Shown in pieces: positions 4,252 to 16,910 of a stretch of DNA of 64,000 bases. The DNA is taken from the NCBI GenBank assembly GCA_021825585.1, contig JAKAGT010000026.1, forward strand, positions 1 to 64,000. Direction: 5' to 3'. Numbering within the stretch: position 1 is the stretch's first letter; each line of letters begins with the position of its first letter. The notes beneath the pieces are model-generated. The model was not told where the DNA came from. It searched no databases and saw only the letters and a list, made by a program, of their open reading frames with translations. The stretch comes from Bacteroidota bacterium. GTDB taxonomy: Bacteria > Bacteroidota > Ignavibacteria > Kryptoniales > JAKASW01. Position numbers and translations under genes: made by a program.

Positions 4252-5313
4252 TTGACTAAGAAGCTTCATTCTCTGAATATCGGACTTCTGATGATTTCAC
4301 TGAGCGGCGCACTCCTTTCCGGCTGCGGAAAACAACCCAACGCTGAGAAACATGAAGGAGGCCTGTCTTACTCCACCATACCGGTGGAGATAGCAGTCGT
4401 ACACAGGCAGAACCTGTCGGTGACCAAGCTGTACTCGGGGACACTCGAAGGCGAGGAGCAGGCAAATGTCGTCCCGAAGATTTCGGAGCGGATCACCGCA
4501 ATCAATGCCAGGGTCGGCGAATCGGTGAATGCCGGCCAGGTTCTGATAGTACTGGACAAGAGCGGAGCGACTTCGCAATACTACCAGGCACAGGCCGCAT
4601 TCAGCAATGCCGAGAAAACCTACGAGCGCATGAAGGCTCTTTACCAGGAAGGTGCAATTTCACAGCAGACTCTCGACGGCGCACAAACAGGTTTTGACGT
4701 GGCCAAGGCGAACTTCGATGCGGCAAAGAGCGCGGTGGAGCTTACGACACCGATCCCCGGAGTGGTCACCGCCGTCAACGTGAGCGCGGGAGATTTGACC
4801 ACGCCCGGCGAAGTCCTGATTACTGTCGCAAAGATCGGGAGAATGAAGGTAGACTTCGACGTAAGCGAAACGGACCTCGGCAGTCTCGCGCTCGGCCAGA
4901 ACGTGCAGGTCTATTCGGAAGCACGTCCGGACGTCAAGATAACGGGCGAGATCGTCCAGCTTTCCAAATCCGCGGATGTCCGCTCGCGGACCTTCCAGAT
5001 GAAGGCGCTGTTCAACAACACGCGGGACAACTGGTTCAGGCCGGGAATGTTCTGCCGGGTTAACGTGCAGGTTGCGGCGCACGATAAACCACTGGTTGTT
5101 CCCGCGGCTTCCATAATAAGCGACGGAGTCACAAACAGAGTATTTGTGGTGAGGAGCGGGAGGTCGTTCCAGCACGCCATTCGGACCGGACTGACGGACG
5201 GGAAGATGTTCGAAGTACTGGACGGACTCAGTGAACGAGACACGGTAATCACAACGGGCGCCACGAGTGCGCGCGACAGCGGCTACGTTACGATAGCCAA
5301 CGCCGGAGAATAA
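4252..5313 (+). CDS. RND efflux periplasmic adaptor lipoprotein (HlyD/AcrA family)
   Basis: A periplasmic adaptor that bridges the inner-membrane RND pump and the TolC channel. I place the start at TTG 4252. AGGAGG at 4240-4245 sits 6 nt before it, and this start gives a clean lipoprotein signal ending LLSGC. The longer frame from ATG 4192 adds 20 residues before the signal. The 353-residue protein shows the lipoyl-like half-motifs (ITAINARVGESVNAGQVL and the return strand PGVVTAVNVSAGDLTTPGE), a coiled-coil hairpin between them, and the beta-barrel domain. It sits 85 bp after tolC and 96 bp before the transporter. Confidence 0.9.
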   Translation: MTKKLHSLNIGLLMISLSGALLSGCGKQPNAEKHEGGLSYSTIPVEIAVVHRQNLSVTKLYSGTLEGEEQANVVPKISERITAINARVGESVNAGQVLIVLDKSGATSQYYQAQAAFSNAEKTYERMKALYQEGAISQQTLDGAQTGFDVAKANFDAAKSAVELTTPIPGVVTAVNVSAGDLTTPGEVLITVAKIGRMKVDFDVSETDLGSLALGQNVQVYSEARPDVKITGEIVQLSKSADVRSRTFQMKALFNNTRDNWFRPGMFCRVNVQVAAHDKPLVVPAASIISDGVTNRVFVVRSGRSFQHAIRTGLTDGKMFEVLDGLSERDTVITTGATSARDSGYVTIANAGE

Positions 5314-9396: not shown

Positions 9397-9548
9397 ACAA
9401 TACGCCGATAAAGAGCGATGTCGGGAGACGCCAGGTTTCTCCGGCAAAGAGCGGCGCGGCATGGCTCAAGTCGCCTGCGCCAAGCGATTGGAGTCTTTCG
9501 ACAACGAGTAAAGATGCTAACCTTGATAATAAGACGGTGGAGGTTGAA

Positions 9549-9998
9549 TTGGACAGGATAAAGGTTCTCTTCATTTGCGTTCACAACAGCGCCCGGAGCC
9601 AGATGGCGGAAGCGTTCCTCAATCAATACGGACACGAGAGATTCATCGCCGAAAGTGCGGGGCTCGAACCGGGTAAACTGAACCCTATAGTCGTCGATGC
9701 CATGAAGGATGCAGGAATAGACATCTCTGCCAACAAGACGAAGAGCGTTTTCGATTTTTTCAAGCAGGGAAGAAGATACAACTTTGTTATCACGGTTTGC
9801 GACGAATCTAACGCCGAACGCTGTCCGATCTTTCCGGGGGTAGTCGATACAATCCACTGGAGTTTCAGAGACCCGTCCGGCCTGACCGGCGGCTATGAGG
9901 AAAAACTGACGGGAACCCGCATCATAAGGGACGAGATCAGGAGCAGAATCCAGGAATGGATTAAGGAGATGACCGCGAATGAGGGCAACCTAAAATGA
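9549..9998 (+). CDS. arsC: Arsenate reductase, thioredoxin-coupled (low-molecular-weight phosphatase fold)
   Basis: It reduces arsenate to arsenite in the cytoplasm. The P-loop nucleophile motif is CVHNSARS (C-x5-R-S), followed by the shuttle cysteines in [11 protein letters not shown], the pattern of thioredoxin-dependent ArsC enzymes. I place the start at TTG 9549: GGAGG at 9539-9543 precedes it by 5 nt and the P-loop strand begins at once. The frame extends 4 codons further up to GTG 9537. The 149-residue length is normal. It overlaps the ACR3 gene by ATGA (9995-9998), so the two form an operon that reduces and exports arsenic. Confidence 0.92.
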
Positions 9999-11077
9999 GT
10001 CCTGGCCTGAGCAAGCTGTCGTTCCTGGACCGGTTCCTGACGTTCTGGATATTCGCCACGATGATCCTCGGCGTATTCATCGGGTACATGTCCCCGGGGG
10101 TTGTCGGCTTCTGGAACAGCTTCCAGAGCGGCACGACGAACATTCCAATCGCCATCGGCCTGATCCTGATGATGTATCCTCCCCTCGCTAAAGTCAGATA
10201 CGAAGAGCTCGGCAAAGTATTTCGCAATGGGAGAATATTGACGCTTTCTCTCATCCAGAACTGGATCATAGGGCCGATAGTGATGTTCGCTCTGGCCGCG
10301 ATATTCCTTCACAACTATCCGGAGTATATGGCGGGTCTGATACTTATAGGGCTGGCCAGATGTATCGCTATGGTCATCGTCTGGAACGAGCTCGCATGCG
10401 GAAACACGGAGTACGCAGCCGGCCTGGTCGCATTCAACTCGATCTTCCAGGTATTGTTCTACTCTTTGTACGCATACCTTTTCCTCACGATACTACCGCG
10501 TACGCTGGGTTTGAACTCATTCACGGTCGACATAACGATCGGCCAGATCGCCGAGACCGTGTTGTTCTATCTTGGAGTCCCTTTTGCTGCCGGAATCATA
10601 ACAAGGTTCGCGCTCATCCGGCGGAAAGGCAAAGAGTGGTACCAGGAGAAGTTTACACCGAAGATCAGCCCCATCACTCTTGTCGCGCTTCTCTTCACAA
10701 TCTTCGTGATGTTCACCCTGAAAGGCAACCTCATAGTTCGTTTGCCGCTGGACGCAGCGAGGATTGCGGTTCCGCTTGTCATCTATTTCGTCGTCATGTT
10801 CTTTGTCTCATTCTGGATGGGAAAGAAAGTCGGTGCCGATTACAGCAAGACAGCCACTTTGTCCTTCACCGCTGCAAGCAACAACTTCGAGCTCGCAATA
10901 GCCGTAGCGATAGCGGTATTCGGAATAAACTCGGGGGAGGCCTTCGCATCCGTGATCGGTCCGCTTGTGGAAGTACCTGTACTGATTTCGCTGGTCAACG
11001 TGTCTCTCTGGTTCCAGAAGACATACTTCACCATTGAAGACCGGGGCAAACCCGCTGACGGCCCCGGAATAGACTAA
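9995..11077 (+). CDS. acr3: Arsenite efflux transporter, ACR3 family
   Basis: A 360-residue membrane protein with about ten transmembrane helices that exports arsenite. The diagnostic ACR3 stretch [19 protein letters not shown] holds the conserved cysteine needed for transport in characterised members, followed by [15 protein letters not shown] second half-repeat carries [21 protein letters not shown]. It is translationally coupled to arsC by a 4-bp overlap. No ArsR regulator or ArsA ATPase is adjacent. Length and motifs are complete. Confidence 0.95.
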
Positions 11078-11407: not shown

Positions 11408-12517
11408 CTAAACGTTCGCCCCCTCCGCGAGGCGGCAATAGTCCGCAGCAATTATCCTGTCCAACGGGTCGCGCACATAAAGTACGGGTTTGGATTCCTC
11501 CCCGACAATTGCGGTCCTTGTGCCTTGCCGGGCTTTGTGGCGCGTCGAGCCTGCCAACCTGGCCGTCAACCATTTTGAGAGTTTTTCGGCCGCATGGCCG
11601 TACTTCCCGGAAAATACCATCGCGTCGTAACCGCCCATCAGGGCTATGGCAGCTCCGCAACTCAGAAGGACTCTGTATTCGAGAAGATCCCTGGCGGCCT
11701 TATACTTCTCTTCATCTTCAAATATGTCTTCGATCGTAACCTGTTGTCCGGCAACGGCGGTCAGGCCGCTGTTCCTAGTCAGCATCTCGTTTATCGTTTC
11801 GGGTCCGAGCTTTTTCTTTTCTTCGATGAGCAGCACGATACCGGGGTCTATCTCGCCGCATGTCGTGTTGCCCGGAATACCTTCCATCGGAGTGGACCCG
11901 CCTGAAACGTAGACGGGCCTCCCGTCATATATTCCCACGACTTCAGGAACAGGCTCGAGACAAATCGAAATTACCCTGGCTGCCTCTTTGTACTGTCGGC
12001 TGATTCTACGATAGGCGGCCTCGTGATAAAGGCCGTGGTAGCCGAACCTTCTAATGCCGTCGAGGGCGCCGTCAGATATCTCCGCAGACTCAATATCCAG
12101 AGCATAGGTCCGCTCCTGTATCGGAAGATCGACAAAGAACGCCGTCTCGAAAAGGAGAAGCATATCGGGGACCGGGACTGCCCTCTCAAGCGTCTTTATC
12201 AGCCTGATGGCGGGCGGGATGTGGAGCGGGGAATCCGGAACCAGTTCCTCCAATGCCGGCAAGATCGATCTGTCGTAAAGAGCCGGCTTTCTGAACCGCT
12301 CGCCTCCATACAAGACCCTGATCGCGACCGTTTTGGGTCTGTAATCGTCCATCAGGCTTCTTATGTCGTCACTCGAGGCCGACGAATCTCTCGATCTGAT
12401 TCTCCCTTTTCTCTGAAGCTGGTACGATTCGTCTGCCGGGGGCTGAAGGTCGCCGGTCGAATAGACGAAATAGTTCACGTAGAAACCTTCAGGAATCAAG
12501 ACGACTAAGTTTCTCAT
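11408..12517 (-). CDS. Acetate-kinase-fold protein lacking catalytic residues (pseudoenzyme)
   Basis: A 369-residue paralogue of the acetate kinase just upstream. The fold is recognisable from IRRFGYHGLYH, STPMEGIPGNTTCGEIDPG and RNSGL. Residues used by Methanosarcina acetate kinase are mostly gone. N7 of LNCGSSS is replaced (LIPEGFY), D148 is E (FETAFF), the phosphate-binding HLGxG reads CLEPV, R241 of TRCG is T (TTCG), and the IGE and TNEE motifs read KYGH and DPLD. R91, H123 and the FHGxxH histidines survive. Start ATG 12517 has AAGG 6 nt ahead and overlaps the ackA end by 29 bp. A regulatory or structural partner role is inferred. Confidence 0.85.
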   Translation of the reverse strand: MRNLVVLIPEGFYVNYFVYSTGDLQPPADESYQLQRKGRIRSRDSSASSDDIRSLMDDYRPKTVAIRVLYGGERFRKPALYDRSILPALEELVPDSPLHIPPAIRLIKTLERAVPVPDMLLLFETAFFVDLPIQERTYALDIESAEISDGALDGIRRFGYHGLYHEAAYRRISRQYKEAARVISICLEPVPEVVGIYDGRPVYVSGGSTPMEGIPGNTTCGEIDPGIVLLIEEKKKLGPETINEMLTRNSGLTAVAGQQVTIEDIFEDEEKYKAARDLLEYRVLLSCGAAIALMGGYDAMVFSGKYGHAAEKLSKWLTARLAGSTRHKARQGTRTAIVGEESKPVLYVRDPLDRIIAADYCRLAEGANV

Positions 12518-13802
12518 TTGCACCTTCTCCATTCTCATGAAACGCTGATTCACTTCCATCCGGCCCGACGAGCCCGACATCCGCCGGCGATATGTGACCG
12601 TATGTCTCCCTCCGTGACAGGAGCTCATAAGCTCTCTTTGCGATCGCAGCCTCTTCGTTCGTTCTGACGACCAGAATGTGCGCCTCGCTTCCGGACGACG
12701 AGATGTCGGCAGGAAGCCCCGTCGCTGTCCTGTTCTTCCATTTGTCCAGCCTGATGCCGAAGTAGTCCATGTTTCTGCAAACCAGTTCGCGGACGTATGG
12801 CACCGACTCTCCTATCGTGTCGGTGAAGATAACGGCATCCGCGTTTCCCACGACCGTCATGTAAGCGCCAAGATACTTCTTTATTCGTGACAAATAGACA
12901 TCAAGCGTCGTCCGGGATCTTTCATCTTCCGTACCGGCGGCTCTTCTGATGACATCTCTTATATCAGACGAAATTCCGGACAAGCCGAGGACGCCGCTCT
13001 TCCTGTTCAGTATTTTGTCCACTTTTGAATAGTCCCCTCCGGTATAAGCGATCATCTTCAGGACCACTGCCGGATCAAGGTCACCGCAACGGGTGCTCAT
13101 CACCAGACCCTGCAACGGCGAGAATCCCATCGAGTTATCGGCAGATTTTCCTCCCGCGACCACGCAAAGACTGGCGCCACCACTGCCGAGGTGACAGCTT
13201 ACCGCGTTGAACCTCTCCGGGGCTATACCCAGGAACTCCGCTGCGGCCTCGGATACGTACTGGTGACTTATCCCGTGAAATCCGTACTTTCTGATTCCGA
13301 GTTCGTCCCTGATTCCTTCCGGGAGAGGATAAGTGTAAGCATACTCGGGAATCGTCGAGTGAAACGCCGTATCGAGTATTACCGCCTGGGGAATCTCCGG
13401 ATATCTTGCGTCGCATTCATTTATCAGTTCTATCACAGGCGGATTGTGTATTGGTGCAAGGTCCCTGATCTTCTCCAGTAAGGGAAATTCTCTCCTGGTA
13501 ATAAGCGTGTTGTCACGGAACTCCGCGCCGCCCTGTACGAGTCGGTGAGCAAACACATCCGGCGGGAAACTCATATCCTTCTCCACGATCCTTGTTGCTT
13601 CGGAGAAAGCTTCCTTGTAGCTTCCCGCTTTTATCGGATATGTTTCCTCGCGGCCGGAGACCCTGTGAACGATCCGCGAGGCCTCGGCCGTTTTTGCTCC
13701 TATCCTCTGAACTTCCCCGCTGAGTATCTCTTCACCCGCGGGCATAGAGATCATTCCATATTTCAGCGAGGAACTTCCGCAGTTCAATACGAAGATGTTC
13801 AT
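12489..13802 (-). CDS. ackA: Acetate kinase
   Basis: It makes acetyl phosphate from acetate and ATP, or ATP in the reverse direction. The 437-residue protein keeps the catalytic set: N in LNCGSSSLK, R in AHRLVQGG, H in APIHNPP, D in ILDTAFH, the histidines in YGFHGISH, phosphate loop CHLGSGG, R in STRCGDLDP, and E in IGES and TNEE. It is some 35 residues longer than usual because of an extra tail after the last motif. The start at ATG 13802 matches the family N-terminus; the open frame runs farther upstream inside the M20 gene. It lies 5 bp after the M20 gene and overlaps the degenerate paralogue. No phosphotransacetylase gene is nearby. Confidence 0.94.
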   Translation of the reverse strand: MNIFVLNCGSSSLKYGMISMPAGEEILSGEVQRIGAKTAEASRIVHRVSGREETYPIKAGSYKEAFSEATRIVEKDMSFPPDVFAHRLVQGGAEFRDNTLITRREFPLLEKIRDLAPIHNPPVIELINECDARYPEIPQAVILDTAFHSTIPEYAYTYPLPEGIRDELGIRKYGFHGISHQYVSEAAAEFLGIAPERFNAVSCHLGSGGASLCVVAGGKSADNSMGFSPLQGLVMSTRCGDLDPAVVLKMIAYTGGDYSKVDKILNRKSGVLGLSGISSDIRDVIRRAAGTEDERSRTTLDVYLSRIKKYLGAYMTVVGNADAVIFTDTIGESVPYVRELVCRNMDYFGIRLDKWKNRTATGLPADISSSGSEAHILVVRTNEEAAIAKRAYELLSRRETYGHISPADVGLVGPDGSESAFHENGEGANEKLSRLDS

Positions 13803-13807
13803 GGTTG

Positions 13808-15037
13808 TCAGATCTCCAGGTCCGATGTCCATCCGAAGACCGGGATTCCTGCCAGGCTGTGTACAATCGCCGCCGTGCCGAGAACGCCTTCCGTTATCCT
13901 TCCGAGTGCGACGTACTCGTTCGGGGCATGGGCCTCGTCTTCGCGGCCGGGTCCGTATCCGATCGTCGGGATACCGAACCGCTTCGTCAGGACGCTTCCC
14001 GCGGTCCCCATGCCGAGGCGGGGAAGACGCCATTTGCCCGGCTGGTTCTTGCATCCTGCAGACGCGAGCGCCTGGCGGGAACGATCCATGATGGGAGAAA
14101 ACGGGTTTGTCTCCCAGGCATCGCTGAGATATCTGACCTGAACGGTCTGACCGTTACTCAGTCTCTGTGCCTCTTCACGTATCTGGATATCGAGATTAAG
14201 GTCGTTCCTCTCTCTCAGATCCCGCAGGCTGAACTGTTTTATCCTCTCGGTCAGGGTCTCAGTGTCATCATCGGAGAAGAGTCTGCGGTTGAACGTTATG
14301 TACGCATCTCCTTTTTCATGATCGAACCTCGGCTCCCTGACGTTCATCAATTCGATGAAACCGGGAAGGCCCTTTGCCTGAGTGGCGCTCAGGAGGTTCC
14401 GGAAGACAGTTTGAGCTGCATCGTGAAGGAAGTTCGGATTCGGCGAGTCCAAACCGATCTTGAACTCAGCCCAGCCGTCATGACCGTAGAATAGCCCCAG
14501 GTCGGTCGGCTCACCGAGGATTGCGTAGTCGACTTTTATCTTCATATCGGCCAGGGTCCTGGTGAGCAGGTGCTGCACCCCGAGGCTCAGGCCGTTCTCC
14601 TCCGACACGGTGGCGGCAACAATCAGATTGCCTCTCAAAGGAAGGAGCGCACGTTTCAGAAGATATCCGGCATAAACCTGAACTGCGATTCCGCTCTTGC
14701 AGTCCGAGCTTCCCAGACCGTACAGCCTGTCTCCTTCAACCTCGCCGGAGTAGGGCGGCATATCCCAATTTGAATTTTCTGTATCGGCATCGACTGTATC
14801 CATATGGCTATTCAACAGGACCGTCGGACCGGACTCGACTCCGTATATAATCCCGAAGACGTTGCCGAAATCATCCACGATGACCTTGTCATACCCCAAC
14901 TCGTTCATTCTTCTCTCAACGATCTTTGCGACGTTGATCTCGCAAAGACTCTGGCTCGGTGTGCGGACAAGTTCAGACGTGAACCTGGCCGCTTCTTTTC
15001 CTAAATAGTTCGCGTGTTCTTTTAGCAGTTTATACAT
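13808..15037 (-). CDS. M20-family metallo-hydrolase (ArgE/DapE/YgeY-like)
   Basis: A 409-residue zinc-dependent amidohydrolase or peptidase. The di-metal ligands are visible in NSHMDTVDA, GLGSSDCKSG, the catalytic EENG, GEPTDL and the late EDEAHAPNE. The start is ATG 15037, with GAGG 8 nt ahead; the frame has an earlier ATG at 15061. It heads a three-gene minus-strand operon with acetate kinase and its degenerate paralogue. One reading, which is inference, is that it releases acetate from an N-acetylated substrate for the kinase. The substrate cannot be told from sequence. Confidence 0.88.
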   Translation of the reverse strand: MYKLLKEHANYLGKEAARFTSELVRTPSQSLCEINVAKIVERRMNELGYDKVIVDDFGNVFGIIYGVESGPTVLLNSHMDTVDADTENSNWDMPPYSGEVEGDRLYGLGSSDCKSGIAVQVYAGYLLKRALLPLRGNLIVAATVSEENGLSLGVQHLLTRTLADMKIKVDYAILGEPTDLGLFYGHDGWAEFKIGLDSPNPNFLHDAAQTVFRNLLSATQAKGLPGFIELMNVREPRFDHEKGDAYITFNRRLFSDDDTETLTERIKQFSLRDLRERNDLNLDIQIREEAQRLSNGQTVQVRYLSDAWETNPFSPIMDRSRQALASAGCKNQPGKWRLPRLGMGTAGSVLTKRFGIPTIGYGPGREDEAHAPNEYVALGRITEGVLGTAAIVHSLAGIPVFGWTSDLEI

Positions 15038-15255
15038 TTCAGTTCCTCTTTTTTCTTTCACCTATGATACCTCAAGGAGTGTGCCGACGGGAAAACCCGC
15101 GCTGCGTACGCATTTGAGCGTTTAGGGATTGTTGCTTAAGATGCACCTTTGTAATTTGCAATGGTATCACTGCAGGACGCCATTAGAAAATCGGAAGGCG
15201 CGAAGAGAACGAGCCTCCGTTAATTCCAGGGAGTCGGGCAGAACATTACCAGAGG

Positions 15256-15293: not shown

Positions 15294-16910
15294 ATGAAAG
15301 CTGAAGACTTAAGATTAGAAGAATTAGTCAGCTTCTCCGAAGGGACATTGGCCCTTCAGGGGCGCGAAGTGGTCCTTCACAGCCTGCATGCATTTGCACA
15401 ATTCAGGAAGGACCTCGTCGACACTGTCAGCCTGGAGCATACAAGAAGTTTCCTTACCAGGTTCGGATATTTCCAGGGCCAGGCGGATGCGTCCGTTCTC
15501 ATCAGCAACTTCACCTGGGACAACGACATTGAGTTGATAAAAGCCGGCTGCAAGCTCCATTCGCTTGAGGGGATCGCGAGAGATATCATAAACAGCCTGG
15601 AGTATGATGCGCGGGCCGGAAGATTTCTGATGGAGATCAGCTGGGTCGACTCCAAAGAAGCGCAGGAGCACTTGTATGTCCTGGGAAGATCGGCTGAACC
15701 CGTCTGTTGGATACTGAGCGGGTATTTCAGCGGCTTCGTATCGCTCTGTCTCAAAAGAGACGTCTACTTCATCGAAACTTCCTGTAAGGCTCAAGGCAAG
15801 AACGTCTGTCACGCGACCGGAAAGGACGTCGATACGTGGGGTGATGAGATCAAGCCTTACATCGGTTACTTCAAGTCTCACGATATCAAGCTAAAGATCG
15901 GGAAGCTCACCGAGCAGCTGAAGCAGAAAGCGGCGCTGTTGAAGAAATACGAGAAGGAAATCGAGGCGCTCGGTACGGCTGCAAAACCGTCGTTCATCGA
16001 AATCCACAGCAAGGCGTACAAGAATGTCCTGATAGTTGCCAACAAGGTCGCACCCTATGATTCGACGGTCCTGATTACCGGCGAGACCGGAGCGGGAAAG
16101 GAAGTGATGGCGAAATATATCCACCGGCTTTCTCCGCGGTCGAAGGGGCCTTTCATCGCCGTCAATTGCGGGGCGCTGCCTGAGTCGCTTCTCGAAAGCG
16201 AACTATTCGGGCACAAGGCCGGCGCTTTTACCGGCGCCATCAAGGACAGAATCGGGCTGTTCGAAGTTGCCGACAAAGGCACCGTGTTTCTCGATGAGAT
16301 CGGCGACATAAGCCCTGCCATGCAGCTGAAGATCCTTCGGGTTCTACAGGAACGCGAGATCTTGCGCGTCGGCGAGAGCCTTCCCCGCAAAGTCGACATC
16401 AGAGTTATCGCGGCGACGAACAAAGACCTGAAGGAATTGATAAGCCGGGGCAAGTTCAGAGAGGATCTCTACTACAGGTTGAGCGTGATGGAGCTGCGTG
16501 TTCCCGCACTCCGGGACCGCAAGGAAGATATTCTCCCCCTCACGAGGTTCTTCGTCGACAGGCTTTCAAAGAAATTAAAGATCCGCAATCTCCACATCGA
16601 TTCCACCTGCATCGACTATCTCCAGGAATACAACTGGCCGGGAAATGTCAGGGAATTGGAAAACGTGATTGAGCGGGCCGCAATACTGAGTCCGGACGGG
16701 CGAATCTTGCCGGAGCATCTTCCTGCCGCGATTGCCAATGCGGGAAAGAAGTCCTTTGAACCCCTGGTGAAAGGGAATCCGACACTTGAGGAAGTGGAGC
16801 TCGGTTACATACAACAGGTACTGGAACAGACGGGGGGTAACAAAGCGAAGGCCGCGCGCGTCCTAGGAATCGATGTGACTACGCTCTGGAGAAAACTGAA
16901 GAAAGACTAA
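15294..16910 (+). CDS. Sigma-54-dependent activator with XylR-N/V4R-type sensor
   Basis: A 538-residue enhancer-binding protein of the XylR/DmpR type. Residues 1-110 resemble the XylR N-terminal fold. Residues about 115-182 look like a V4R small-molecule domain with cysteines C164 and C172. A coiled linker follows (200-226). The AAA+ domain has Walker A GETGAGKE (263-270) and the sigma-54 contact loop GAFTGA (310-315), and a Fis-type helix-turn-helix closes the protein ([21 protein letters not shown]). It is divergent from the M20-acetate kinase operon, which makes that operon its likely target. I could not find a convincing -24/-12 promoter in the 256-bp gap. Confidence 0.92.

Follow-up and report, generated by a model that had tools for sequence, protein, structure and literature searches.

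What is a catalytically dead copy of acetate kinase doing immediately behind an apparently competent one? Textbooks describe acetate kinase as a homodimer, and the window considered here (the whole 64,000-nucleotide stretch of DNA analyzed, from a Bacteroidota bacterium) carries two overlapping genes of that fold, ackA2 and pAck, of which only the first retains the full catalytic set. They had been picked out from the sequence as an active acetate kinase directly followed by a pseudoenzyme, and the coordinates, strand, gene order and 29-bp overlap given in that original prediction were all correct (Table 1). The M20 hydrolase and sigma-54 regulator alongside had been left unconnected to the pair; the unit is in fact a four-gene module, in which the sigma-54/V4R regulator is divergent from an M20 hydrolase gene that is followed by ackA2 and then pAck.

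Table 1. Positions of the module genes and associated features in the window.
Feature	Position	Strand	Description
pAck	11408..12517	-	369 aa, start ATG at 12517; predicted acetate-kinase-fold pseudokinase by sequence
ackA2	12489..13802	-	Full catalytic set, pyrophosphate-type PHOSPHATE2 and ADENOSINE motifs
ackA2 end / pAck start overlap	12489..12517	-	29 bp; same 29-bp overlap in three congeners
M20-family amidohydrolase/peptidase	13808..15061	-	PF01546, 85 bits
-24/-12-like element upstream of M20 gene	15071..15086	-	CGGCACACTCCTTGAG; weak, shuffle p 0.19
Sigma-54-dependent activator, divergent	15294..16910	+	Pfam XylR_N and V4R (ligand-binding domains), Sigma54_activat, HTH_8

Longer open reading frames from upstream starts (406 and 521 aa) were set aside, and the starts at 12517 and 13802 are preferred because homologues begin at those positions; the conserved start of the M20 gene is probably the ATG at 15037. 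The nearest NCBIfam model of the M20 gene is the YgeY family (NF009555), against which it scores 189.6 bits, below the cut-off of 321. Its metal-ligand residues are conserved within the module, the sigma-54 regulator is conserved beside it, and a -24/-12 match lies 29-55 bp before the M20 start in 14/14 non-congeneric loci tested (shuffle p at most 0.02). Just 3' of pAck, on the opposite strand, lie genes named from their translations as arsC-like and ACR3-type arsenite exporter (9537-11077).

AckA2 scores 365 bits against PF00871 and passes the NCBIfam acetate kinase model TIGR00016 (360.8 bits, cut-off 293.4). In the numbering of Methanosarcina thermophila AckA (Mt), used throughout, it keeps N7, S10, S12, R91, H123, D148, H180, R241, and E384, and all of these other than the two serines are also present in its full-length relatives, in agreement with the N, R, H, D, H, R, E set first reported for this gene. 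The label of active acetate kinase stood less well: the catalytic set is complete, but in its motifs the enzyme departs from the plain ATP type and carries pyrophosphate (PPi)-type marks. Its PHOSPHATE2 loop reads HLGSGGAS, with one extra Gly where the M. thermophila and Thermotoga AckA sequences have a gap; A330 is replaced by Asp, G331 by Thr and G239 by Ser, and D330 and T331 depart from the ATP-type ADENOSINE motif (Gly331, Ala/Gly330). Asp occupies Mt330 in every AckA2 examined, and positions 331-332 are Thr-Ile or Thr-Val in most, with Asp-Ile in a congener (G007) whose Asp at 331 is as in Anaerolineaceae. The extra Gly and Asp330 are found in all AckA2 and are absent from the ordinary ACK sequences examined. 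The NGGS loops of a few canonical ACKs were considered as similar extensions and rejected, being of normal length with Ser changed to Gly and accompanied by a normal ADENOSINE motif.

Dang and Ingram-Smith report the extra PHOSPHATE2 Gly and the Asp only in four Anaerolineaceae sequences and in the ACK of Entamoeba, an enzyme that works with PPi/Pi; according to them Gly stands at 331 in every ATP-dependent ACK, and residue swaps at such positions failed to turn ATP enzymes into PPi users (PMC5517563). On its motifs, then, AckA2 is an acid kinase with the adenosine motif and phosphate loop of a pyrophosphate-type enzyme. Counting against a PPi donor, the Entamoeba enzyme (EhACK) has Gln-Met at 331-332 and AckA2 here has Thr-Ile. 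There is an appreciable, if minority, case for an ATP-dependent acid kinase, perhaps one acting on an acid other than acetate, whose odd adenosine motif would reflect altered subunit packing, a reading compatible with a pseudokinase partner. Every catalytic residue is in place, position 331 is Thr where EhACK has Gln, and M. thermophila AckA altered at Gly331 retains a weak use of ATP (PMC4390882); set against this, four AckA2 motif positions match the PPi type, including the inserted Gly that PMC5517563 describes as confined to that type.

The downstream protein passes PF00871 (120 bits, cut-off 22) and fails TIGR00016 (116.6 bits, cut-off 293.4). Its predicted structure (pTM 0.83, with low-confidence parts that include residues 208-211 and 220-226) matches TdcD and AckA with Z about 33 over 335 residues at 3.6-3.8 A, bearing out the claim that the paralogue keeps the acetate kinase fold. 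It has I at 7, R91, H123, E148, Y179-H180, H184, T at 241 and L at 384, with the phosphate loop CLEPVPE where HLGNGSS stands in acetate kinase. Most of the residue list drawn up initially can therefore be retained (R91 and H123 kept; N7, the phosphate loop, R241, and E384 lost), with two amendments: D148 is replaced by Glu rather than plainly lost, and the motif given as FHGxxH is YHGLYH, its histidines being kept. R241, the phosphate loop and E384 are lost in every full-length pAck and N7 in most, while the acid-side residues R91, H123, and L122 are mostly retained. At the lost sites stand new conserved motifs, namely E148, Y179-H180, H184, CLExxPE, a PGxT[TS]CG run in place of LOOP3, and GRY in place of GIGEN. 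The pattern is far beyond chance, with more than 20 further loci showing it. Judged by sequence, pAck is a pseudoenzyme, its catalytic residues lost while selection keeps the gene; it is predicted to keep its fold and a good part of the acid-binding half-site, and to have lost the metal, phosphate, and nucleotide half.

Such a replacement of catalytic motifs by other invariant residues, not random ones, together with the large retention of H123, H180, and H184, might also be expected of an enzyme with a new activity, for example hydrolysis or transfer of an acyl phosphate made by AckA2, using the invariant Glu, two His, Cys, and Glu. This is unlikely: those residues are not shared by the pAcks of G007 and the Margulisbacteria, and some of the conserved loops fall in the low-confidence parts of the model, so that no site can be drawn.

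A pAck profile scan of 84,980 species genomes returned 27 loci, which include KSB1, Phycisphaerae and other Planctomycetota, Lentisphaerota, Kiritimatiellota, a Desulfobacter-named genome, Polyangiaceae, and Marinamargulisbacteria. The module is rare yet present in at least seven phyla (Bacteroidota, KSB1, Planctomycetota, Lentisphaerota, Kiritimatiellota, Desulfobacterota, and Myxococcota), with a distant form in Margulisbacteria. The order of regulator, M20, ackA2, and pAck is the same in nearly all loci not cut by a contig end, and protein identity of the four-gene module across phyla is 35-60%. The flanks beyond the four genes differ between phyla, and no recurring fifth gene that might hint at the substrate was seen in them. 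An AckA2-profile search, in which AckA2 scored at least 615 bits and ordinary ACKs at most 446, covered 1035 genomes of five phyla: 288 from the phylum of Pontiella, 294 from that of a planctomycete (G431), 297 from that of the Desulfobacter-named genome, 74 Margulisbacteria, and 82 KSB1. It found 10 AckA2 genes in the Pontiella phylum and one in each of the others, and pAck was adjacent to all 14; several of these genomes were seed genomes, and at least three (L104, L106, and L108) lay outside the pAck scan. The possibility held out at the start, that the paralogue would be found only here, consequently fails: pAck is ancient, and its position beside AckA2 is conserved. Plasmid records gave, among the matches listed, only ordinary acetate/propionate kinases of about 31% identity. 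One Polyangiaceae genome (G429) has two separate ackA2-pAck pairs, on C196 and C650, as judged from adjacent PF00871 matches.

An ordinary full-length ackA is also present in 14/14 module genomes tested. In the source genome it lies elsewhere (C18, 520 bits to PF00871), and another contig (C75) carries a gene of butyrate kinase type with a phosphotransacetylase-like gene after it; the ackA2-pAck pair is therefore neither the sole acetate kinase nor the housekeeping one.

Within the genus, the intact four-gene locus occurs in five congeneric genomes, with identities to the window of 49-54% for pAck, 61-69% for AckA2, 65-71% for the M20 protein, and 76-79% for the sigma-54 regulator. G007 has a second ackA2-pAck pair (L041, 5843-8192, minus strand) with neither M20 nor sigma-54 regulator, and folE2 (GTP cyclohydrolase) lies directly 3' of it. 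The G007 AckA2 has the Entamoeba enzyme as its best solved match (366 bits against 300 for the next) and groups with Entamoeba ACK in the tree, and its own divergent pAck stands next to it. The Marinamargulisbacteria variant (L085) has an HTH-cupin regulator instead of the sigma-54 type. Its M20-like protein (819-2033) has no Pfam match and may be a pseudo-hydrolase, since the metal-binding residues of the other module M20s have been lost; at the module end, on the other strand (4314-5168), is a PurU-like gene with ACT and formyltransferase domains. This gene and folE2 make two one-carbon/formate-related neighbors, which may be coincidence.

These variants bear on a further reading, in which pAck senses a ligand as a free protein and has the sigma-54 regulator or the M20 protein, not AckA2, as its target. 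Regulatory roles can be taken on by ROK-type and other ASKHA proteins, the regulator belongs to the conserved module, and part of the acid-binding pocket is retained in pAck. Nevertheless, the G007 pair has no regulator or M20 and the Margulisbacteria variant has a regulator of another type; the constant partner of pAck is thus AckA2, and a free sensor seems quite improbable.

Among three close congeners (G012, G009, and G002), dN/dS was 0.08-0.13 for pAck and 0.04-0.07 for ackA2, pAck evolving about twice as fast as AckA2. In the tree, pAck forms one group (support 100/95), as do the ordinary ACKs (92/96), and AckA2 with EhACK makes a third, weakly supported group (87/43); branches within pAck are long, and its two most divergent members, those of G007 and Margulisbacteria, are placed with caution. 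In these two, function may have been lost independently within the same kind of paired layout. A sister species (G006, L035/L061) lacks M20 and ackA2 altogether, together with the greater part of the regulator and the first 83 pAck codons, as if by one deletion; stumps of the regulator and pAck remain, and no counterpart of the window's arsenic genes is seen at the locus. The pAck stump has 283 codons and a dN/dS of 0.14. Because it is 84% identical without an internal stop, the loss looks recent, in what is a metagenome assembly where a mis-join is possible.

Signs of neutral decay, part of what would have refuted the original prediction, were looked for and not seen. That pAck is a recent duplicate heading for loss is scarcely credible, for although it diverges faster than AckA2 and survives in one sister species only as a stump, it is conserved across phyla as one clade with its own motifs and low dN/dS, and where only the stump is left, the pAck N-terminus is missing in company with AckA2, M20, and the greater part of the regulator, with no sign of long decay. 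pAck is under purifying selection, and the inheritance of the pair together across at least seven phyla shows that the dead copy is maintained as a partner rather than decaying as a duplicate. The same selection and tight co-inheritance would be expected of any functional partner, whether or not it is a heterodimer subunit.

The reading preferred here, to which we give an even chance, is that the locus encodes a sigma-54-controlled and probably non-ATP acid kinase, formed as a complex of catalytic AckA2 and a pseudokinase subunit, pAck. The divergently encoded activator would sense a small organic ligand and turn on the M20 hydrolase-AckA2-pAck operon. AckA2 and pAck would then assemble with each other, as a mixed dimer or a larger complex. 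Within it AckA2 would be the subunit that transfers the phosphoryl group; its donor would probably be Pi/PPi or a different non-ATP compound, and its substrate a carboxylic acid or acyl phosphate connected with what the M20 hydrolase produces. As the non-catalytic subunit, pAck might sense or position the acid or set the activity of AckA2, and the genome's separate, ordinary acetate kinase would be left with the housekeeping reaction. Because ordinary acetate kinases are homodimers with half-the-sites behavior (PMC3145573), an inactive subunit as a fixed part of the enzyme could plausibly serve to set activity or specificity. More speculatively, and in our estimate rather doubtful, the pairs could constitute a bacterial class of PPi-type acid kinase that works only with its pseudokinase, in a four-gene catabolic module moved between phyla, from which the Entamoeba PPi-ACK would descend, having lost its partner.

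The gene pair is real and conserved, and apparently undescribed. The original prediction knew of no acetate kinase pseudoenzyme pair, and the open-access literature likewise yielded none, whether described as a pseudoenzyme of acetate kinase, as a tandem paralogue without activity, or as the partner of a bacterial PPi-ACK; a search for a CoaX pseudoenzyme precedent found unrelated papers only. To our knowledge, acetate kinase has no dedicated pseudokinase partner. Both fall within the acetate kinase superfamily; what is new is their constant pairing and its link to pyrophosphate-type motifs. Should the complex form, it would provide a natural mixed active/dead dimer and a test of half-the-sites models. 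Should AckA2 use pyrophosphate, it would supply bacterial examples, amenable to study, of a donor type that has been shown only in Entamoeba (PMC5517563), along with many natural variants in which to find the determinants of donor choice, unsettled by mutagenesis. The module is open to such tests because a cultured type strain, Pontiella sulfatireligans F21 (Kiritimatiellota), carries it.

Several known systems resemble parts of this arrangement. The YgeY family (NF009555, TIGR03526) is the closest named family of the M20 hydrolase, which is not a member by cut-off. The regulator shares the XylR_N-V4R-AAA+-HTH layout of MobR and the AAA+ and HTH region of PrdR, scoring far below the curated cut-off in both cases. 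TsaD and TsaB are an active/inactive ASKHA pair, one subunit being catalytic and the other an inactive paralogue of the same fold. AckA2 and pAck would have that same layout, whereas the family, reaction, and partner set differ. AckA (PF00871, TIGR00016; M. thermophila, PDB 1G99/1TUY) has the fold common to both proteins, and its catalytic residues are all in AckA2; in contrast to AckA, the PHOSPHATE2 loop of AckA2 is longer and its ADENOSINE motif changed, pAck is without the catalytic set, and the two were paired in every case found. The accessible portion of PMC5517563 mentions no pseudokinase partner of a PPi-type ACK. With the PPi-dependent Entamoeba histolytica ACK (PDB 4H0O) and its putative Anaerolineaceae relatives, AckA2 shares the extra PHOSPHATE2 Gly, the Asp, the loss of the ADENOSINE Gly, and Ser239; it differs from the Entamoeba enzyme in having Thr-Ile rather than Gln-Met at 331-332 and in being encoded in a bacterial operon with an M20 hydrolase and a pseudokinase.
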